A stretch of DNA of 47,606 bases, from positions 17,007-64,612 of the forward strand of contig PEZZ01000007.1 in NCBI GenBank assembly GCA_002773845.1, in the 5' to 3' direction. Every line of letters begins with the position of its first letter. Positions within the stretch are counted from its first letter, which is position 1. The translations under genes were made by a program, and so were the position numbers. Shown piece by piece: positions 9,247-16,477 of this stretch. The notes under the pieces are model-generated. The model was not told the origin of the DNA and made no database searches. It saw only the letters and a program-made list of their open reading frames with translations. The stretch is from Candidatus Buchananbacteria bacterium CG10_big_fil_rev_8_21_14_0_10_42_9. GTDB lineage: Bacteria; Patescibacteriota; Patescibacteriia; Buchananbacterales; 21-14-0-10-42-9.

Positions 9247-9627
9247 ATGGCTGATAAACCGCTTAAAGTATTGTTGGTGGAGGATGATGATACTTTAATT
9301 GATATGTACAAGATGCGCTTTGACGCCGAAGGTTTTGATTTAACGGTGGTTAAAGACGGCACTACCGGCATAGACACTGCGCTTCAAGGTGGCTGGGATG
9401 TAATTTTGCTTGATGTGATGCTGCCAAAAGTTGATGGTTTCATGATCTTAGAAGAGGTTAAAAAGAACGCTAACACTAAAAATGCCAAAGTTATTTTGCT
9501 AACTAATCTAGGCCAAGAGTCTGACAAGAAAAAAGGCGAAGAGATGGGCGCCTCAGGATATTTAGTTAAGGCGAATTTCACGCCGAGCCAAGTGGTTGAC
9601 AAAATTAAAGAAATCATTAAAATATAG
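9247..9627 (+). CDS. Stand-alone response-regulator receiver protein
   Basis: A single CheY-like receiver domain of 126 residues without an output domain. Acidic residues at VEDDD (about 10-13), the phospho-acceptor Asp in VILLDVMLP (about 53), a Thr/Ser-type switch in ILLTN (about 84) and the conserved Lys in LVKAN (about 106) are all present, so it should be phosphorylatable. No histidine kinase is nearby. Single-domain receivers act by protein-protein contact in chemotaxis, pilus or phosphorelay systems; the partner here is unknown. The start is placed by the promoter spacing. Confidence 0.88.
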   Translation: MADKPLKVLLVEDDDTLIDMYKMRFDAEGFDLTVVKDGTTGIDTALQGGWDVILLDVMLPKVDGFMILEEVKKNANTKNAKVILLTNLGQESDKKKGEEMGASGYLVKANFTPSQVVDKIKEIIKI

Positions 9628-9634
9628 GGTCAAT

Positions 9635-10084
9635 ATGGAACAATCATTAATTATTTTCAAACCAGATGCTCTCCAGCGTAATTTAGTTGGAGAGATTATT
9701 CGCCGTTTTGAACAAAAGGGTCTAAAAATTATTGGGCTTAAAATGTTGTCTTTGGATGATACTGTTTTGGACGAGCATTATGCCCATCATAAAGATAAGC
9801 CGTTTTTTGCCGATTTGAAAAATTTTATGAAATCTTATCCAGTGATTGTAATGGCTTTGCAAGGGCCTGACATTGTTGATGCGATTCGTTTAATTGTCGG
9901 ATCAACTAACGCCAAAGAAGCTGATGCCGGAACTATTCGCGGCGATTTTGGCATGAGCAATTTAAATTTAGTTCACGCTTCTGATTCAGCTAAAACCGGT
10001 AAAGCCGAAATTAAGCGATTTTTTAAATCAGACGAACTATTTGAATACGATAAAATCACGGATGTAATGATTTACGAAGAGTAA
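9635..10084 (+). CDS. ndk: Nucleoside diphosphate kinase
   Basis: Equilibrates nucleoside di- and triphosphates using a phospho-histidine intermediate. 149 residues, usual length. It begins MEQSLIIFKPDALQRNLVGEII, the canonical N-terminal nucleotide-binding segment. It contains RLIVGSTNAKEADAGTIRGDFG and the active-site motif NLVHASDS with the catalytic His. It starts seven bases after the receiver gene stop and is probably in the same transcript. A hairpin with a U-run at 10137-10163 may be its terminator. Confidence 0.97.
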   Translation: MEQSLIIFKPDALQRNLVGEIIRRFEQKGLKIIGLKMLSLDDTVLDEHYAHHKDKPFFADLKNFMKSYPVIVMALQGPDIVDAIRLIVGSTNAKEADAGTIRGDFGMSNLNLVHASDSAKTGKAEIKRFFKSDELFEYDKITDVMIYEE

Positions 10085-10107: not shown

Positions 10108-10135
10108 TTGACAAGTTTTAAGCAAGAGCTAGACT
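10108..10135 (+). promoter_or_regulatory. Island unit 1 promoter
   Basis: TTGACA (10108-10113), 16 bp, TAGACT (10130-10135). An ATG follows 16 bases later at 10152. It starts the accessory island directly after ndk. Confidence 0.5.
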
Positions 10136-10136
10136 G

Positions 10137-10163
10137 ACGGCAGTTCCTTACATGCCGTTTTTT
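10137..10163 (+). terminator. Hairpin plus U-run after ndk / at the unit 1 5' end
   Basis: ACGGCA (10137-10142) pairs with TGCCGT (10153-10158), followed by six T. It lies just after the unit 1 -10, so it could terminate ndk transcripts, or very early unit 1 transcripts. Confidence 0.55.
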
Positions 10164-10179
10164 AAACCCAAACTTGTTT

Positions 10180-10250
10180 GGAGAACTCTTATTGTGAGTA
10201 CAAGGCAACTTGTAAATACCAAAGAGCTCTCCAGAAATGGGGAGTTTTTT
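10180..10250 (+). promoter_or_regulatory. Unit 1 candidate attenuator
   Basis: GGAGAACTCTT (10180-10190) can pair with AAGAGCTCTCC (10222-10232) with one mismatch, enclosing a small hairpin ACAAG-GCAA-CTTGT (10200-10213) with a GNRA-type loop. The competing hairpin CTCTCC/GGGGAG (10227-10244) is followed by six T. The two structures are mutually exclusive, the logic of a transcription attenuator. Unlike the other units no closed leader peptide is evident. Confidence 0.5.
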
Positions 10251-10304: not shown

Positions 10305-10493
10305 GTGGGCGAGTGCACCGGTTCTCATGACGATGAAAACCAAGTGGCCGCGGACCAGGCTCTGCCTAAGGCTGTAATAGCCACGTCGGATGCTTACCGG
10401 CAGTGGCTTATTCAGCAAGAGGCCTTGCATGGGCCCTCATCCAAGTGGCCACAAAGCAGTTGCCGAAGATTGATTCTCAAGCCCGGCGATTGA
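10305..10493 (+). CDS. Small hypothetical protein, unit 1
   Basis: Unrecognised 62-residue protein starting at GTG with AAGGGGAA about eight bases upstream. It contains VAADQALPKAVIATSDAYR and a basic, Cys-containing C-terminus ending LILKPGD. The same frame stays open upstream to an ATG at 10152, so a 113-residue product that includes the leader region is possible. The upstream residues overlap the attenuator hairpins and look non-coding, so I prefer the GTG. Codon use is GC-rich compared with neighbouring core genes. No function is proposed. Confidence 0.45.
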   Translation: MGECTGSHDDENQVAADQALPKAVIATSDAYRQWLIQQEALHGPSSKWPQSSCRRLILKPGD

Positions 10494-10526
10494 CGAGACA
10501 GGAGGTAAGATTCTCGTTGCCAGGCC

Positions 10527-10557
10527 GAACACAAGACAGTTGTATGCGCTTGTGTTC
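10527..10557 (+). terminator. Hairpin downstream of the unit 1 gene
   Basis: GAACACAAG (10527-10535) pairs with CTTGTGTTC (10549-10557), a perfect nine base-pair stem. It is followed by a short T-rich stretch (ATTTTGA), so termination may be inefficient. Confidence 0.5.
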
Positions 10558-10574
10558 ACATTTTGATGCCTTGA

Positions 10575-10605
10575 CCCCGTTAGAAGTTTTCAACTTCTAA
10601 CGGGG
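10575..10605. repeat. 14-bp palindrome abutting the unit 2 -35
   Basis: CCCCGTTAGAAGTT (10575-10588) and AACTTCTAACGGGG (10592-10605) are perfectly complementary around a three-base loop. The right arm ends exactly one base before TTGACA. Related CCCCGTTAGAA-type arms occur at 17487, 21493-21557, 29836-29855 and 37332-37432. It may be a terminator-like insulator, an operator, or a dispersed palindrome. Confidence 0.7.
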
Positions 10606-10634
10606 TTGACAGGCAATAGTTATTAAGTTAACCC
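10606..10634 (+). promoter_or_regulatory. Island unit 2 promoter
   Basis: TTGACA (10606-10611), 17 bp, TAACCC (10629-10634). The leader ATG at 10644 follows after nine bases, the same geometry as in units 3, 4 and 6. The -10 is the weakest of the group. Confidence 0.55.
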
Positions 10635-10643
10635 GAAATAAAT

Positions 10644-10730
10644 ATGATGGAGTTAAACCTTTCAGTCATTATTACCACTATTAAGACCAAGACTACGCAC
10701 CTTGTGGGTGGAAGGTTAATTGTTGCATAG
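10644..10730 (+). CDS. Unit 2 leader peptide (Thr/Ile-rich)
   Basis: A 28-codon ORF whose ATG lies nine bases after the -10. Its middle reads SVIITTIKTKTTH: five Thr and three Ile codons within twelve positions, ending about nine bases before the anti-terminator strand at 10706. The stop TAG is inside the conserved CATAGATAA. The arrangement resembles the thr operon leader peptide, where stalling on Thr/Ile codons prevents termination. That it is translated is inference. Confidence 0.5.
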   Translation: MMELNLSVIITTIKTKTTHLVGGRLIVA

Positions 10731-10796
10731 ATAATACAAGTTAGACAATCGCAAGCAGCCTTCTACCCAGAAGGCTTTTTTGATTGTCTTGCTTGC
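10706..10796 (+). promoter_or_regulatory. Unit 2 transcription attenuator
   Basis: GGGTGGAAGG (10706-10715) can pair with CCTTCTACCC (10759-10768), one G-U pair. This would disrupt the terminator AGCCTTC / GAAGGCT (10757-10776) that is followed by six T. Flanking arms AGACAATC / GATTGTCT (10743-10750, 10782-10789) and GCAAGCA / TGCTTGC (10751-10757, 10790-10796) interleave. From CATAGATAA to the end the sequence is almost identical to unit 3 (11549-11636). Confidence 0.72.
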
Positions 10797-10886
10797 CTGG
10801 ATACGCCTTACGCGGATTCCATGCGGACAAGACAGCACATTGACTAAACATCGGACTCAATTTCCCGCCTTGCGGGGGAGAAAGAA

Positions 10887-11303
10887 ATGCCGACGAGGAG
10901 ATTAATTTTTGTTCCGGCTGAGTGTCATGTCTCGGCCAATGGCGATGGTGCATTCCATGCCAGCATCACTATGGCTGAGAAGTTTGACTTAAGTCGCCTA
11001 CGGAGCGGCAGCGCAATTTCCGAATGCATTCAGTGTGCGGTCGGCGATGCTGTGTCTGAAGCCATGGGATTACCGTGCTCGACAGCACTAAAGCTGGATG
11101 ACGCGGGAAATCTGTGGCAACACGTGTCGGTTGACGGTGGCTACTCAAGCAGCCGCCGTCTAGCGGACAAAGGCGAAGCGTTGGCTGATAGAATTTGGCC
11201 CATGCTTGAATCCGCTGAGCCGGTGCTTGTCCAGGCGATGGCGTCTGAAATGGCTCGTGTTTTCACGGACTACAATAGAGTGTACGTCGACTATGCAGTA
11301 TAG
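10887..11303 (+). CDS. Hypothetical protein, unit 2
   Basis: Unrecognised protein of 138 residues. It starts at ATG preceded by GGGGGAG, itself sitting on a CCCGC-CTT-GCGGG hairpin (10864-10876). The N-terminus looks like strands (RRLIFVPAECHVSANGDGAFHASITM), then a helix (AISECIQCAVGDAVSEAMG), a glycine-rich turn and a long C-terminal helix (SAEPVLVQAMASEMARVF). There is no signal peptide or membrane segment. Strand-helix order and spacing resemble the unit 6 protein. The coding sequence is clearly GC-richer than core genes. Function unknown. Confidence 0.72.
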   Translation: MPTRRLIFVPAECHVSANGDGAFHASITMAEKFDLSRLRSGSAISECIQCAVGDAVSEAMGLPCSTALKLDDAGNLWQHVSVDGGYSSSRRLADKGEALADRIWPMLESAEPVLVQAMASEMARVFTDYNRVYVDYAV

Positions 11304-11348
11304 GTCGGCAGCTCATATTGGGAAAATGCCATCGAGGGATCCGCCACA

Positions 11349-11387
11349 GGGGTTCGAGAAATCAAGAAAGGAGATATCTCGAACCCC
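11349..11387 (+). terminator. Hairpin after the unit 2 gene
   Basis: GGGGTTCGAGA (11349-11359) and TCTCGAACCCC (11377-11387) form a perfect 11 base-pair stem. There is no U-run, so it may be an mRNA 3' stabiliser rather than an intrinsic terminator. Confidence 0.5.
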
Positions 11388-11410
11388 TCGAACCCATCTA
11401 GTAGTTGGAT

Positions 11411-11452
11411 CCCGGATCGGAGTCCGGGACGACACATTTCTTGATGTGTCGT
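11411..11452. repeat. Tandem hairpins immediately before the unit 3 promoter
   Basis: CCCGGA/TCCGGG (11411-11428) is followed by ACGACACAT/ATGTGTCGT (11429-11452), whose last base touches TTGACA. The same two-hairpin module, with compensating base changes, precedes the unit 6 promoter at 14357-14396. Confidence 0.65.
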
Positions 11453-11481
11453 TTGACATTATTTTTTACTTCCTATATACT
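11453..11481 (+). promoter_or_regulatory. Island unit 3 promoter
   Basis: TTGACA (11453-11458), 17 bp, TATACT (11476-11481), close to perfect consensus. The leader ATG follows ten bases later. Confidence 0.8.
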
Positions 11482-11491
11482 GCAAAACAAC

Positions 11492-11548
11492 ATGAATATT
11501 GCCAAACTTTCCCAAATTATTAACATTATCATTATTGACCAGCCTTAA
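11492..11548 (+). CDS. Unit 3 leader peptide (Ile-rich)
   Basis: Encodes MNIAKLSQIINIIIIDQP, 18 residues with seven Ile codons, six of them in a seven-residue stretch. The stop TAA is directly followed by the anti-terminator strand GGGTGGAAGG. The ATG is ten bases after the -10, so the mRNA would be essentially leaderless. This is the expected layout of an isoleucine-sensing attenuator; translation and stalling are inferred. Confidence 0.6.
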   Translation: MNIAKLSQIINIIIIDQP

Positions 11549-11636
11549 GGGTGGAAGGTTTAGCGCATAGATAAAAACAAGTTAGACAATCGCAAGCAGC
11601 CTTCCCCCGGAAGGCTTTTTTGATTGTCTTACTTGC
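11549..11636 (+). promoter_or_regulatory. Unit 3 transcription attenuator
   Basis: Strand GGGTGGAAGG (11549-11558) competes with the terminator AGCCTTCC / GGAAGGCT (11598-11616) followed by six T. Outer arms AGACAATC / GATTGTCT (11584-11591, 11622-11629) and GCAAG / CTTGC interleave as in unit 2. The near-identity with unit 2 extends over about 70 bases, while the peptides and genes on either side differ. Confidence 0.75.
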
Positions 11637-11727
11637 TTATACCAGTGGTATTAGCGAGCAAGGCATTTGGTCTTCATAAGTTATCCTGTTCGACTCAACC
11701 CTAAACACCCCGAGAGGAGGTTTAATT

Positions 11728-12159
11728 TTGAGCGCAAACAACTGGTATTATTACCCCACTGGAACCATTCTGGTTCCAAGAAACCCTGAAGGCGGAGGCC
11801 ATGAATCTATCCACGGAGAGTACGGTGAATGGTTCATGGTCAGGGGATATCAAGGCAGCGAAGGTGATGACCTCGTGGTGTTGGTGTCTCTGAGTGAAAG
11901 GACGGGCGCTTGGAAGCGGCTCTTCCCCGGCCATTACGGGACACCTGATGTTGGCTTGCATCCACACAGGCCGACAATCATGAGGTTCATGAGGCCAGCC
12001 ACTCCTGAAGAGATACTTCCCCAGCAGATGGCGGAGCTCTACCGTGATGAGCTCGACGTGCTGTACCACTGGGGTAACCGCGAGCAGTGGCCTGACCACC
12101 TGCGCAAGCGGTTCCGCCGGCGTCGGAGTATTCCGAAGCGAGAACTCAACGGGCAGTAA
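11728..12159 (+). CDS. Hypothetical protein, unit 3 first gene
   Basis: Unrecognised protein of 143 residues, starting at TTG eight bases after a strong GAGAGGAGG. It has an aromatic N-terminus (NNWYYYPTGTILVP), a Gly-rich segment, a hydrophobic strand (DDLVVLVSLSE), HPHRP near residue 75 and a strongly basic tail (KRFRRRRSIPKRE). No signal peptide or membrane helix. GC-rich codon use. The basic tail could bind nucleic acid, but that is speculation. First gene of a likely four-gene transcript. Confidence 0.7.
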   Translation: MSANNWYYYPTGTILVPRNPEGGGHESIHGEYGEWFMVRGYQGSEGDDLVVLVSLSERTGAWKRLFPGHYGTPDVGLHPHRPTIMRFMRPATPEEILPQQMAELYRDELDVLYHWGNREQWPDHLRKRFRRRRSIPKRELNGQ

Positions 12160-12175
12160 AGCCCAGGAGGAGGAC

Positions 12176-12247
12176 ATGACAAGAGGACCGCCCAAGAGGG
12201 CTGGACGCGAATGGAAAGCGTCCGGCCCTCACACACCCTGCTTCTGA
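12176..12247 (+). CDS. Very small ORF, unit 3 second gene
   Basis: A 23-codon ORF (starts MTRGPPKRAGREWK, ends PHTPCF). It is preceded by an exceptionally strong AGGAGGAGG placed right after a GGGC...GCCC hairpin (12151-12164). The hairpin plus Shine-Dalgarno arrangement matches the longer island genes, which is the reason for listing it. It is basic and has one Cys. It could be a microprotein or a translational leader for the next gene. Confidence 0.45.
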   Translation: MTRGPPKRAGREWKASGPHTPCF

Positions 12248-12344
12248 ATGCTGATAATTATTTGTCATTATCCAGAAGCCGAGTGCTTCCTAGCGATGTA
12301 GTTTCGCTAGTAAGTCCCGCGTAGCGCGGGGGAGGATTTACATA

Positions 12345-12704
12345 ATGCCTACCGGGACCAAACGGAAACGGTTTGAATTGTTCTATCTGTCGCCTGAGAA
12401 ACGTGGTGGCAGTTGGCAGGTTTGCGTTGGCGTCCGTGACTGTGTCGATCGCCGAGAACATCGCGGCAAAGGCGCAGACGATCTTCAGCACCTTGCTATC
12501 GAACGGGCGTTCGCTAAGGCACTGGGCGATAAGCTCTCTTTCAGCATCAAGTGGGAGCTGGATCTGGATAACGAGCAGCGCGCAACTGGCGGCTGGTTGC
12601 GGAATGGCAAAGCAAGAGTAAAGCTTGGGAGTTTGCACTCTCATAGCTCGGCGGATTTCGCCAACGCTATTGTAGCAGCCTTGAATACAGTCACCTCGCA
12701 CTAA
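12345..12704 (+). CDS. Hypothetical protein, unit 3 third gene
   Basis: Unrecognised 119-residue protein. The ATG follows GGAGG by nine bases, and the GGAGG sits on a perfect CCCGCG-TAG-CGCGGG hairpin (12316-12330). A strand-like N-terminus (KRFELFYLSP, GSWQVCVGVRD) leads to a helix (DDLQHLAIERAFAKALGD). Two strands (SFSIKWELDLDN, KARVKLGSLH) and a last helix (DFANAIVAALNTV) follow, suggesting a small alpha/beta fold. GC-rich. A longer antisense frame overlaps it but has no ribosome site or promoter. Function unknown. Confidence 0.65.
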   Translation: MPTGTKRKRFELFYLSPEKRGGSWQVCVGVRDCVDRREHRGKGADDLQHLAIERAFAKALGDKLSFSIKWELDLDNEQRATGGWLRNGKARVKLGSLHSHSSADFANAIVAALNTVTSH

Positions 12705-12732
12705 GACCTGACCCAGTTGAGGAGAACAAGAC

Positions 12733-13017
12733 ATGTACACACAAGGAACCGCGTTGTGCTCTCCGGGAGCAAATGCGGAAAGCGGAAACTTCCTAGTAGT
12801 ACTGGAGGTAGCCAAAAAAGGGGATCGCCCCATCTGTATGGTAAGTCCAGCTCTGGCAAGCATGGTCCAGCGGCCTTATGTCGGACCGGTGGATACCACA
12901 ATTCTTGACGCGCTCGTGCCCGTCGCGCTTGAGAGCGCGGCGTTCCAGAGTGTCGTGTCGGAGTTGACCGGTGAGGATCGCCGGCAAGTGCGTCGGCTCC
13001 GGCCGCGTAGTCGGTGA
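12733..13017 (+). CDS. Hypothetical protein, unit 3 fourth gene
   Basis: Unrecognised 94-residue protein starting at ATG eight bases after GAGGAG. It has a hydrophobic strand (NFLVVLEVAKKG), a helical middle (TILDALVPVALESAAFQSVVSEL) and an Arg-rich C-terminus (RRQVRRLRPRSR). It lies 28 bases after the previous gene and before the terminator at 13039, so it is probably the last gene of unit 3. GC-rich like the rest of the island. Confidence 0.6.
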   Translation: MYTQGTALCSPGANAESGNFLVVLEVAKKGDRPICMVSPALASMVQRPYVGPVDTTILDALVPVALESAAFQSVVSELTGEDRRQVRRLRPRSR

Positions 13018-13126: not shown

Positions 13127-13186
13127 ATGATTTTACACGCAAACAACCTACCATTATTGCCTTTATTGCCAGTCCCAAGCCGGTAG
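13127..13186 (+). CDS. Unit 4 leader peptide (Leu/Pro-rich)
   Basis: Encodes MILHANNLPLLPLLPVPSR. Five Leu and four Pro codons fall in ten consecutive positions (CTA CCA TTA TTG CCT TTA TTG CCA GTC CCA). The stop TAG overlaps the first base of the anti-terminator strand GGGAGTTTG. Its spacing from the -10 is the same as in units 2, 3 and 6. It suggests control by charged tRNA-Pro and/or tRNA-Leu; translation is inferred. Confidence 0.6.
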   Translation: MILHANNLPLLPLLPVPSR

Positions 13187-13253
13187 GGAGTTTGTTTGTA
13201 TCCATAGATAAATAAAAGTTTCAGACAAATTCCCATACCAACTGGGATTTTTT
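13186..13253 (+). promoter_or_regulatory. Unit 4 transcription attenuator
   Basis: GGGAGTTTGTTTG (13186-13198) can pair over 13 positions (two G-U) with CAGACAAATTCCC (13222-13234). This prevents the short terminator stem TCCCA/TGGGA (13231-13247), which is followed by six T. The CATAGATAAATAAAAG spacer resembles units 2 and 3. Confidence 0.68.
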
Positions 13254-13278
13254 GATTATAAGCACATTAAATTTATAT

Positions 13279-13352
13279 GTTCGTGTAGCTCAGCAACGTA
13301 GAGCACCTCGCATGGGGCGAGGGGGTCGCAGGTGCAATACCTGTCACGGACC
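13279..13352 (+). tRNA. tRNA-Pro(UGG)-like sequence with altered loops
   Basis: A full cloverleaf can be drawn. The acceptor GTTCGTG/CACGGAC has seven pairs including one G-U. Then come TA at positions 8-9, the D-stem GCTC/GAGC, the anticodon stem CCTCG/CGAGG with loop CATGGGG (anticodon TGG), variable GGGTC, and the T-stem GCAGG/CCTGT. However, the D-loop (AGCAACGTA) lacks G18-G19, the T-loop (TGCAATA) has G at position 55, and position 33 is A instead of U. No CCA is encoded. It follows the Leu/Pro leader attenuator. It may be a specialised tRNA, a decoy or a decayed tRNA; normal decoding is doubtful. Confidence 0.6.
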
Positions 13353-13541
13353 GGGCTTTGCCCGAACTATTCGGCGGTTTCGCCAAATAAGTGCCCACAC
13401 GGGGTGGGAAGACTTATGCGGTGATCCGCCGGCCGGCGCACATCGCGTCAATATCTTCGGAAAGTTGCCCGCAACCCGGGCGGCAATCCACGTGGCGGCA
13501 GGTGTTTACCAACCCTGCCGCCACGATTCCCTAAAAATATT
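13353..13541 (+). other. GC-rich structured stretch after the tRNA-like sequence
   Basis: Contains successive small hairpins (CGGGC-TTT-GCCCG, GGCG-GTTT-CGCC, CCCAC...GTGGG) and ends with a perfect 11 base-pair stem GTGGCGGCAGG/CCTGCCGCCAC (13492-13524). Open frames run through it but have no ribosome site, and the last hairpin lacks a U-run. It is more like an RNA, or a processed tail of the tRNA-like transcript, than a protein gene. Function unknown. Confidence 0.4.
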
Positions 13542-13643
13542 ATGCTAAGACTTTTACTAAAATCTAATGTACTTTCAAAAGCATTGTTATTGCTTGGTTT
13601 GTTATTGTTGGCACCGCCGGGTGGCAAGTTGATACGTGTTTAA
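13542..13643 (+). CDS. Unit 5 leader peptide, Leu-rich frame (alternative Cys-rich frame)
   Basis: The frame starting at 13542 encodes a 33-residue peptide with LLLLGLLLLAPP and 15 Leu in total. A second, overlapping frame from the ATG at 13567 to the TGA at 13632 encodes 21 residues including HCYCLVCYCWH. The second frame stops right beside the anti-terminator strand, as in units 3 and 6, but the first has the more usual attenuator residue run. No consensus promoter is visible, so the unit may be read from unit 4. Which frame is translated is undecided. Confidence 0.4.
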   Translation: MLRLLLKSNVLSKALLLLGLLLLAPPGGKLIRV

Positions 13644-13696
13644 CCAAGTCTTTGATAAACATATATGAGCCTACCACCCCTGTCGGGTGGTTTTTT
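13619..13696 (+). promoter_or_regulatory. Unit 5 transcription attenuator
   Basis: GGGTGG (13619-13624) inside the leader frame competes with GGGTGG (13685-13690) for CCACCC (13674-13679). The second pairing makes a terminator followed by six T. Confidence 0.6.
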
Positions 13697-13796: not shown

Positions 13797-14240
13797 ATGG
13801 AACTTGCTGATTTCCAGATGGAGTACTACAAGCACTTACGGCCCGGCCCAATCGGCACTCCGCCAGGGGGATGGGAGATGTCACTGACCATTGGTGATAT
13901 TACCATTTCCAGTAAAGGGGGGCATTGGTACCTCGCCGCTGCCGAGTTGCTTACGCAGCTCGGCTTTCCAAGGGAGTACCTCGACGAGCTCGAGGTCGAG
14001 CACTTGGTCACTTCCCAAGAGACTGCGGAGAAGTTCGTCGGCAACTGCCTGGCACCCTTACGGATTGCCTTAAGTCGGCCGCGGCGGTCTAATCGCCACC
14101 AAATTCGCGTGGCTGGCTACCTGAATGGCCGGCATCGTAAGGAGGGGGCGAAGGCAGGGACGAAACTCGCTGCCTTGCAGGGGGCTATTGCCCGCCTGTT
14201 CGGTGGACGACCCATTCTGCGGACTGAAGGCGCGGCATAA
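13797..14240 (+). CDS. Hypothetical protein, unit 5
   Basis: Unrecognised protein of 147 residues. It starts at ATG nine bases after GGAGG, which directly follows a CGAGC-AAGC-GCTCG hairpin (13770-13783). An in-frame ATG at 13761 would lie upstream of that hairpin and is less likely. Composition: acidic N-terminal helix, strand pair (WEMSLTIGDITIS), helix (WYLAAAELLTQLG), acidic middle, then a basic C-terminal half (SRPRRSNRHQIRVAGYLNGRHRKEG) and a final helix. No signal peptide. GC-rich. Function unknown. Confidence 0.7.
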   Translation: MELADFQMEYYKHLRPGPIGTPPGGWEMSLTIGDITISSKGGHWYLAAAELLTQLGFPREYLDELEVEHLVTSQETAEKFVGNCLAPLRIALSRPRRSNRHQIRVAGYLNGRHRKEGAKAGTKLAALQGAIARLFGGRPILRTEGAA

Positions 14241-14299
14241 GGGAGGTCTCAAGTTTAAGGCGAAAGTACCTCACCAGGTATTAATCGCCGCGAGTTTTC

Positions 14300-14339
14300 A
14301 AAAGGGCCGAGATCGCACACCCACGATCCGGCCCTTTTC
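14300..14339 (+). terminator. Unit 5 terminator
   Basis: AAAAGGGCCG (14300-14309) pairs with CGGCCCTTTT (14329-14338). The stem continues inside as GATCG/CGATC, and the hairpin ends in a T-run, so it can act in both directions. Confidence 0.8.
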
Positions 14340-14356
14340 TAATTATTTTAACTGGT

Positions 14357-14396
14357 TCCCGGGTCAGAGCCCGGGACGGCGCATTCCTTTTGCGCC
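14357..14396. repeat. Tandem hairpins before the unit 6 promoter
   Basis: TCCCGGG/CCCGGGA (14357-14376) and GGCGCA/TGCGCC (14378-14396). The second ends two bases before TTGACA. The module aligns with 11411-11452 with paired changes in both stems. Confidence 0.65.
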
Positions 14397-14398
14397 AA

Positions 14399-14427
14399 TT
14401 GACAAGATTTTAAGCATTTGATAATCT
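14399..14427 (+). promoter_or_regulatory. Island unit 6 promoter
   Basis: TTGACA (14399-14404), 17 bp, TAATCT (14422-14427). The leader ATG follows ten bases later. Confidence 0.78.
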
Positions 14428-14437
14428 TTTTATTACT

Positions 14438-14509
14438 ATGAATAACATATCAAATCAGCGAATTTTTTGGGGCTATTTTTTCTTTTTTTCCCACGCCGGG
14501 CGGGACTGA
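14438..14509 (+). CDS. Unit 6 leader peptide (Phe/aromatic-rich)
   Basis: A 23-codon ORF containing RIFWGYFFFFSH: seven aromatic residues in nine positions, five of them Phe. It then has AGRD and a stop directly beside the anti-terminator strand. It is strikingly like the pheA/pheST leader peptides of enterobacteria in composition, though not homologous by sequence. A phenylalanine-sensing attenuator is the natural reading; translation is inferred. Confidence 0.62.
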   Translation: MNNISNQRIFWGYFFFFSHAGRD

Positions 14510-14564
14510 TTTAGTTATTTAAGATAATTTAAAATTAGCAGATCCCGCACCCGCGGGATTTTTT
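14497..14564 (+). promoter_or_regulatory. Unit 6 transcription attenuator
   Basis: GCGGGAC within the leader end (about 14500-14506) competes with GCGGGAT (14553-14559) for ATCCCGC (14542-14548). The latter hairpin is followed by six T. Outer arms AGATAAT / ATTATCT flank it. Confidence 0.68.
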
Positions 14565-14715
14565 GATTATCTAAAAGGGTTAATTCTGGTACAGATAAAT
14601 GGCAGTCTGAACCAGAACCGACCCCTGTAGTGGTCAAACCGGCCCATTTGGGATCGGGCAGAGATATGCCATAACGAACATTGACTTGGCGGGAGCCAAA
14701 GGAGACCTATAAGCC

Positions 14716-15150
14716 ATGCCAGGTACTAACGGACTCATAAGGCCAATATCCTGTGGGAGGGGTTCGCACGTGATTACCGTCTACACGAACGGTGCACGAT
14801 GCAATATCAACCTTCCCTGGGGGGGCTTTGGCGACATGACGGAGGTTGGCCGCACGGTGATGGAGGAAGATATCAACAGCTTCCTGGAAGAAGTGGCCGA
14901 GGCTGCGCTGCCCGGGCATAAAGTCACCGAGAGGTGCCGTACCGTTTCTCACCTTGCGGACGGATCGTTTTCCGTCAGCGTGTCCCTTGAAGTGGAAGGG
15001 GTAATTGACCCAATTAAGGCCACGGAGATCGGTGAGTGTGTGTACCTCCTGCTCACCGAATGCTACTCCGTTGCCTTACGCGAGGCTAGCGCTCGTCTCA
15101 TCGCGAGAGCTGAGGGTAGCTCACCGGTATTCGCGAGGCTTTTCCACTAA
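14716..15150 (+). CDS. Hypothetical protein, unit 6
   Basis: Unrecognised protein of 144 residues. AGGAG lies 11 bases before the ATG and directly after a TTGGC-GGGA-GCCAA hairpin (14686-14699). Predicted order: strands (SHVITVYTNGARCNINLP), helix (MEEDINSFLEEVAEAALPG), strand pair (DGSFSVSVSLEVEG), and a long helix (ATEIGECVYLLLTECYSVALREASARLIARA). The second half shows the same spacing of Gly, Ala and Leu as the unit 2 protein, so they may be distant paralogues. GC-rich, no membrane segment. Function unknown. Confidence 0.72.
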   Translation: MPGTNGLIRPISCGRGSHVITVYTNGARCNINLPWGGFGDMTEVGRTVMEEDINSFLEEVAEAALPGHKVTERCRTVSHLADGSFSVSVSLEVEGVIDPIKATEIGECVYLLLTECYSVALREASARLIARAEGSSPVFARLFH

Positions 15151-15262: not shown

Positions 15263-16465
15263 TTAAATAATTTCCGCCTGATTCCTATTACGGTTGTGGC
15301 AGTTAATGCAATATTTTAATAAAGGCGGGGTAATTAAAGTCGTTAAGATTACCATCAACATCGCGGCGCTAAAAATATTTTGGGTAATAATTTTTAATTG
15401 AAAGCCTAAAGTGGCAAAAATAATTCCAACCTCGCCGCGCGGTATCATGCCCACGCCAACTATCCAGCTTTTTACTACGGCGCCTGCCACAATTTTACCC
15501 AATACAGCAATGACAGTTAACGAAAGGCCCAAAGCAATAACCTTAAAGTTCAAAAAGATAACTGGATTCACAATTGAGGTGGCATAGACAAAAAAGATGG
15601 GCGCTAATGTGCCTTCTAAAATTAAAACTCGCTGTTCCACTGGTTTTTCATGGTCGTCTTTTCCACTTCTAAAAAAGGCTTCTTCTAAAGCGACTCCGGC
15701 AAAGTAAGCACCGACAATTGGCGCTAAGCCGGCAAATGCCGCGCCGGCGCCATAAGCGGCCATGAAGCCAAAAATAATTTTACTGTTAGCTTGTGGGTCC
15801 AAAGCTCTCAGCTGTTTCATTAAAGGGGCGACAAAAAAGTAGCCTAGCAAAGGGAGTAGCACAATAAAAGCTAGGGCAGTGCCGATTTGAGCTATGATTG
15901 TAAATATGTCTAATTTAATATCGCCAGCAAAAGATTGAGCGACCATAAGGACAATTAGTCCTAAAACATCATCAAGTACCGCGGCGCTGATTATGATTTT
16001 AGCGTAAGTAGCTTGCAGTAGCTTAAATTCAGATAAAACCGCGGTCGTCACCCCGACGCTAGTGGCAACTAAAATACCTCCGGTGAAAAAAGCGGTGGCA
16101 AAATCATAGCCTAAAAGTTGCATTAATAAGTAAGCGCCAACAAGCGGCATGATAACTCCGATCAAGGCCACCCATATACTGGTCTTAGCGTCACGAAGCA
16201 TGGACTTAACATTGCCCTCAAGTCCGGCGCGAAATAGCAACACCATGGCGGCAAATTCAGCTAATTGCGGAATAAAGCCATGCTCATCATGGCGTACCGC
16301 TTGTAGCCATTGAGTCCAATTAAACAAAATACCAATCACAATACCGGCGAGTAACATTCCTAAAACGCGCGGTTGCTTAAATTTAATAGCTATTCGATTG
16401 CCCACGACTGAACCGAGCAGGGCAAAAGCGATGAAGATGAGAGATTGAAAAAAAGCGGTGGCCAT
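15263..16465 (-). CDS. CPA2-type cation:proton antiporter
   Basis: Integral membrane protein of about 400 residues with some 12 hydrophobic segments. It is predicted to exchange Na+ or K+ for protons. The N-terminal helix leads to RVLGMLLAGIVIGILF (about 35-50). The central SAAVLDDVLGLIVLMV (about 160-175) carries the paired acidic residues expected in the ion-binding region of the family. GLAPIVGAYFAGVALEEA (about 250) and MIPRGEVGIIFATLG (about 340) are typical of the KefB/NapA-like branch. There is no C-terminal TrkA-N domain. I prefer the ATG at 16465; an in-frame TTG lies three codons upstream. Confidence 0.88.
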   Translation of the reverse strand: MATAFFQSLIFIAFALLGSVVGNRIAIKFKQPRVLGMLLAGIVIGILFNWTQWLQAVRHDEHGFIPQLAEFAAMVLLFRAGLEGNVKSMLRDAKTSIWVALIGVIMPLVGAYLLMQLLGYDFATAFFTGGILVATSVGVTTAVLSEFKLLQATYAKIIISAAVLDDVLGLIVLMVAQSFAGDIKLDIFTIIAQIGTALAFIVLLPLLGYFFVAPLMKQLRALDPQANSKIIFGFMAAYGAGAAFAGLAPIVGAYFAGVALEEAFFRSGKDDHEKPVEQRVLILEGTLAPIFFVYATSIVNPVIFLNFKVIALGLSLTVIAVLGKIVAGAVVKSWIVGVGMIPRGEVGIIFATLGFQLKIITQNIFSAAMLMVILTTLITPPLLKYCINCHNRNRNQAEII

Positions 16466-16477
16466 TTTTTCCAATGA

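Follow-up and report, generated by a model that had tools for sequence, protein, structure and literature searches.

Attenuators are textbook regulators of amino-acid biosynthesis, among them the thr, leu, ilv, phe and his leaders of enterobacteria. Ribosome-mediated attenuators have also been described in the ilvB leaders of Actinobacteria (PMC1262725) and in Listeria Rli60 (PMC5864092). The latter acts as a nutrient sensor in a functional auxotroph, a situation resembling the one discussed here, except that Listeria retains the biosynthetic operon. For leader-peptide attenuators in Patescibacteria/CPR we found no paper in the open-licence PMC literature.

The window analysed here, 47,606 nucleotides of DNA, is part of the draft genome G000 (1.09 Mb, 96% complete), which by its size and gene content probably belongs to the Patescibacteria/CPR. 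It carries an array of attenuators which, like those of classical amino-acid operons, combine an amino-acid-rich leader ORF, mutually exclusive antiterminator and terminator, a U-run and a downstream gene. Unlike the classical cases, six switches for different amino acids stand side by side in a single array, they precede genes for small proteins without a Pfam match rather than for biosynthetic enzymes, and the genome lacks IlvD and LeuC. This is a known mechanism, attenuation, in an unusual setting: a multi-amino-acid array that persists after the loss of IlvD and LeuC.

The array extends over 10.1–15.2 kb of the window, between an NDK gene upstream (9596–10084) and a Na/H exchanger gene downstream (15266–16474, minus strand), and its units lie on the plus strand. 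They follow one plan: a short leader ORF, a strand A able to pair with a strand B, a terminator formed by B and C with a U-run, a Shine-Dalgarno sequence and a small ORF, called payload in the following. Enrichment of the leader in a sensed amino acid is clear in units 2–6, if less so in unit 4, and unit 1 has no clear leader of this kind; the specificities are Thr/Ile (unit 2), Ile (3), Pro/Leu (4), Leu (5) and Phe (6). When leader, antiterminator and terminator were all required, a strict scan detected four units in the array, none elsewhere in the window and none on the minus strand, and on dinucleotide shuffles it returned at most one unit, in 1 of 300. At curated thresholds no Rfam family reaches its cut-off for the array. 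The array ORFs (10306–13017 and 13797–15150) have a GC content of 54–59% compared to about 41–42% outside; raised GC is also seen in the arrays of the relatives G003 and G010.

An earlier note had drawn attention to some 70 almost identical bases in units 2 and 3. The likeness is confirmed and reaches further, as a common block of 97 bases (10700–10796 versus 11543–11636) with 86% identity (E 3e-24), which begins where the leader ORF ends and reaches slightly beyond the terminator. The local alignment starts with CCTT(GT/AA)GGGTGGAAGGTT and ends with TCTT(G/A)CTTGC, and leader codons and downstream ORFs are not alike. The block thus covers only the attenuator, and the borders of the alignment are the attenuator's own. 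In unit 2 the attenuator spans 10706–10789, with strand A (GGGTGGAAGGTT) at 10706–10717, the outer stem AGACAATC/GATTGTCT at 10743–10750/10782–10789 and the terminator hairpin with U-run at 10757–10781. The corresponding positions in unit 3 are 11549–11629, 11549–11560, 11584–11591/11622–11629 and 11598–11621. The RNA of both units can adopt two mutually exclusive folds, antiterminator or terminator. Compared to shuffled sequences, the whole block folds with z-scores of -3.8 (unit 2) and -3.3 (unit 3), with A and B paired in the best fold, and the terminator part only with -5.8 and -7.0.

What surrounds these two blocks differs. The leader of unit 2, MELNLSVIITTIKTKTTHLVGGRLIVA (Thr/Ile; 10647–10730, with an alternative in-frame ATG upstream at 10644), precedes a payload of 138 residues (10887–11303; Shine-Dalgarno GGGGGAGAAAG) with very weak LeuA_dimer likeness. 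Unit 3 has a promoter-like TTGACA-17-TATACT (11453–11481), the Ile leader MNIAKLSQIINIIIIDQP (11492–11548) and a TTG-initiated payload of 143 residues (11728–12159), followed by ORFs of 119 (12345–12704; weak LeuA_dimer-like repeat pattern) and 94 residues (12733–13017). The suggestion that leaders and ORFs are unrelated holds for the ORFs, for which BLASTP of unit 2 against unit 3 finds no similarity, but perhaps not entirely for the leaders. These share a weakly similar stretch of 26 bases (shuffle p about 0.01), a likeness to be expected of a Thr/Ile leader that arose as an altered copy of the Ile leader, and this would fit a duplication or conversion after which codons of unit 2 changed from Ile to Thr. 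Since units 2 and 3 hold the only two close copies of the block in the whole genome, their near-identity points to a local duplication or conversion, probably a recent one, after which the unit 2 leader would have drifted from Ile to Thr/Ile.

How would such a unit switch? From its sequence, the block of units 2 and 3 is well supported as a classical ribosome-mediated transcription attenuator. An intrinsic terminator competes with an antiterminator, and the upstream strand of the latter overlaps the leader's last part. If the cognate amino acid runs short, the ribosome would stall in the leader peptide and leave strand A (GGGTGGAAGG) unpaired; A could then capture strand B (CCTTCYACCC), so that the B:C terminator is blocked and the downstream small gene transcribed. 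A ribosome that arrives at the leader stop codon would instead cover A, and transcription would end. The Ile frame of unit 3 stops immediately before A, and the frame of unit 2 runs through A to a stop at 10728–10730; a ribosome at the stop codon is expected to cover A in both. Starvation probably induces the payloads in this way. In the family alignment the A:B pairing is retained through near-invariance and not through covariation, with 0 of 8 pairs changed on both sides.

The other units vary this theme. Unit 1 (10108–10250, fold z -6.5, no clear leader peptide) comprises a promoter-like TTGACA/TAGACT (10108–10135), a possible antiterminator segment TTTGGAGAACTC (10177–10188) and a terminator hairpin with U-run (10224–10250). 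Unit 4 (13127–13253, z -6.5) has the Pro/Leu leader MILHANNLPLLPLLPVPSR (13127–13186), strand A at 13180–13194 and a terminator at 13231–13253. The GC-rich, strongly folding stretch behind it (13262–13540, z -5.3) is without a convincing ORF. ARAGORN calls a tRNA-Pro (tgg) at 13279–13352 behind this Pro/Leu attenuator, a doubtful one with A at position 33 and the T-loop TGCAATA. The tRNA was considered as the payload of unit 4 and rejected, the call having no Rfam tRNA support at E 1 or better. In unit 5 the Leu leader MLRLLLKSNVLSKALLLLGLLLLAPPGGKLIRV (13542–13643) overlaps an attenuator (13618–13696; strand A 13618–13628, terminator hairpin and U-run 13673–13696) that precedes a payload of 147 residues (13797–14240). 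Unit 6 consists of the Phe leader MNNISNQRIFWGYFFFFSHAGRD (14438–14509), an attenuator (14496–14564; strand A 14496–14514, terminator hairpin and U-run 14541–14564) and a 144-residue payload (14716–15150) with very weak LeuA-family likeness. It shares the Phe-rich leader and attenuator with Rfam Phe_leader (RF01859), for which it is the best sub-threshold match (14457–14567; 29.8 bits, cut-off 55).

The relatives place these switches in a broader context. Of the 12 genomes analysed for the order, 9 match a covariance model of the attenuator core, counting that of the window. The attenuators of relatives (GGTGGAAG/CTTCCACC) follow Ile, Leu or Ser leaders and precede CimA, LeuA, an HMGL-like enzyme, SerA or small ORFs. 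Across the order both the Ile leader (..III..SQPxGGS), for example as IIISISIISQPTGGS, IIIEIIISQPLGGS, IIIGIIIISQPRGGS, IIIGIIISQPMGGS and IIIGIIINQPQGGS, and the Leu leader (LLLL..GGRF) are conserved beside NDK. Up to its premature stop, the leader of unit 3 agrees with the relatives' Ile leaders (..III-x-III-SQP-x-GGS). Citramalate synthase (CimA) lies behind the Ile switch of G003 and of G010, and 2-isopropylmalate synthase (LeuA) behind the Leu switch of both; prephenate-type genes follow the Phe switch of G003, a Ser leader stands before SerA-like genes in G003 and G004, and in G041 a Pro/Leu leader resembling that of unit 4 precedes a ProB-like kinase. Genes of these kinds behind the relatives' switches indicate that ordinary amino-acid attenuators were the ancestors of the switches.

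Several further loci in relatives are recorded here as observations. G303 (contig C85, L122/L143), without an aconitase-family match, has three attenuators in a row, with a Val/Leu leader, a Leu leader before LeuA and an Ile leader before CimA. On contig C1 of G002 (L007, reverse strand, about 1030–480) the Val leader MNKVLSNNLVITISLVVLILVVLI has no ORF behind it; in its place stands a tRNA-like sequence with the end ..GGGTTCGATTCCCAATCACCCACCA, for which ARAGORN makes no call. A membrane protein of 50–60 residues with a CxxCG...C motif (..KNAPxxCxxCGxL..) stands behind a Leu attenuator in G007 and G003 (L095/L159 on G007:C59; L040:3651–3872). A Val-attenuated small protein without known family is conserved between G003 and G010 (L040:2404–2700, L046:11380–11658; 43% identity, E 6e-24).

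Can the attenuator be regarded as a module, as the earlier note proposed? A search for the motif in the genome and its relatives gives a divided answer: the core does recur in relatives with other leaders and genes, but the genome itself has just the two close copies. A mobile or recombining cassette joined to unrelated genes would account for one core with different payloads and for the exact coincidence of the block borders of units 2 and 3 with the attenuator. Several results speak against it: no close copy sits at an unlinked place in G000, scans for the exact motif in viral contigs and in genome contigs gave no matches, and no flanking repeats are seen bounding the units. Moreover, the array stays beside the same neighbours, following response-regulator and NDK genes in G002, G005, G009 and G010 as in the window, with orthologous Ile and Leu leaders (that of G003 lies at a contig start). 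We therefore regard a cassette as very improbable.

Pairs of close relatives show what changes instead. G044 and G111, of one genus, share a Leu leader with its attenuator at 93.7% identity over 111 nt, and their flanks at 78–96%. Behind this switch G044 encodes LeuA (524 residues), G111 unrelated small ORFs without DNA similarity to LeuA, the first of which contains a run of N. A second swap of payload behind a conserved attenuator, before CysS, distinguishes G043 and G135, members of one family. Simple decay of LeuA as the source of the payloads is weakened as an explanation, G111 having no DNA trace of it. The data are better accounted for by replacement of payloads at a fixed locus, together with a single local duplication, than by modules joined to new genes.

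A stronger result than the cassette idea is that the amino-acid switches survive the loss of IlvD and LeuC, and that some now stand before stand-alone regulatory domains. Neither enzyme occurs in any of the order's 12 genomes, an absence that rests on drafts of 78–98% completeness, and all 14 control genomes were positive. The switches have thus outlived the pathway. G000 lacks an HMGL-like enzyme as well as IlvD and LeuC. In the class as a whole, 31 of the 362 genomes encode an HMGL-like enzyme; only 6 of these 31 have an aconitase-family protein, and 25 lack LeuC.

The orphan first-step enzymes (CimA, LeuA) and the stand-alone domains might be thought to act on a partner, with intermediates or regulatory domains made under starvation causing a host cell to put out more amino acids. 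The first or committed steps of Ile, Leu, Ser and Pro synthesis are feedback-regulated, and several attenuated genes belong to them; most orphan enzymes have intact active-site motifs although the downstream IlvD and LeuC are missing. The enzymes could also serve other internal chemistry, and we consider action on a partner improbable.

In five genomes the regulatory part of such an enzyme occurs as a protein of its own. A search of the 362 class genomes with PF08502 (LeuA_dimer), the allosteric domain of LeuA and CimA, yielded proteins that consist of the domain with short extensions and lack the HMGL barrel. Those of G302, G041, G081, G013 and G110 exceed the Pfam cut-off of 24.9 bits, the first four with 38–105 bits; the HMGL search gave no match in G302, G013 or G110. 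In G302 a protein of 139 residues (E 5e-28) follows the Ile leader MNFQRIRIISIIIGIIINGSPLHPLKT, read by eye where the automatic scan had not picked it; in G081 one of 185 residues (E 4e-18) follows the Ile leader MDLRAIQIISIISQPTCGGRFTL, and in G013 one of about 208 residues (E 6e-10) the Leu leader MYLPQQNHQAVSGLLLTLLALPLFGRMVFA. In G041 a Pro/Leu leader is followed by the kinase and then the domain (123 residues, E 1e-30). For G110 (E 1.5e-20) a leader and attenuator were looked for and none found. Judged by these sequences, stand-alone LeuA/CimA regulatory domains appear to be some of the switches' new products in relatives.

A more sobering account sees the array as a relic, in which attenuators and ORF fragments of lost biosynthetic operons decay slowly without present function. 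The pathway genes are gone, payloads are mostly orphans, G261 looks degraded, as does the LeuA of G002, and the premature stop in the unit 3 leader is consistent with this account. Decay does not readily explain, though, that many genomes still have undamaged leaders, A/B/C segments and Shine-Dalgarno sites, that payload ORFs are longer than those of shuffled sequences (p 0.014 or less), or that G111 keeps no DNA trace of LeuA between well-conserved flanks. Neither does it account for stand-alone domains that have a clean start at a Shine-Dalgarno site, occur in separate families and form at least two groups, LeuA-type and CimA-type; a weakly supported domain tree places G041 in the former and G081, G302 and G110 in the latter. 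A relic is unlikely in our view, without being far-fetched.

The window payloads themselves are harder to assign. They have no homologs and no Pfam match, no protein of G000 passes the PF08502 cut-off, no homolog of the 119-residue ORF was found in genome contigs, and a phage origin was rejected as there is no PHROG match. Against a class-specific LeuA_dimer profile the window ORFs reach only 1.6–3.4 bits. As a set, payloads differ from the background, 9 of 26 scoring above zero against 4 of 98 other small ORFs (Fisher p 9e-5), one of the four being the stand-alone domain of G302 itself. Smaller orphan payloads show weak PF08502 likeness in G112 (E 0.05) and G005 (E 0.3), for each of which it is the only Pfam family listed. 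The LeuA_dimer likeness of the window payloads is an effect at the level of the set, individually weak. AlphaFold models of the unit 2 payload and the Ile payload of G005 are of low confidence (pLDDT 39 and 52), and Foldseek found no significant match; the isoleucine-bound regulatory domain of citramalate synthase (3f6g), at rank 7 for the unit 2 payload (E 0.24, TM 0.2), is a curiosity only. The set-level signal suggests that the window payloads may descend from the LeuA/CimA regulatory domain, and the payloads presumably retain a function after pathway loss.

Our preferred reading, to which we assign a probability of about 0.7, is that the array consists of attenuators kept at a fixed locus in auxotrophs after pathway loss, with the genes behind them replaced or cut down. 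The attenuators would descend from the switches of amino-acid operons (Ile–CimA, Leu–LeuA, Ser–SerA, Phe–prephenate enzymes); as the pathways were lost, genes behind the retained switches would have been replaced or, in several relatives, trimmed to the amino-acid-binding regulatory domain of LeuA/CimA. Tentatively, and with rather low expectations, one may go on to imagine a starvation-response locus of ultra-small auxotrophs. Its attenuators would express catalysis-free amino-acid-binding domains, stand-alone LeuA/CimA domains and their diverged descendants, that act in trans, for example by relieving feedback inhibition of a partner's synthases or by capturing scarce amino acids.

Because the attenuator array persists in genomes without IlvD and LeuC, such auxotrophs may sense single amino acids and answer with uncharacterized proteins. 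The domains behind the Ile and Leu switches offer a concrete way to ask what role an amino-acid-binding domain without its enzyme plays in an amino-acid-dependent bacterium.
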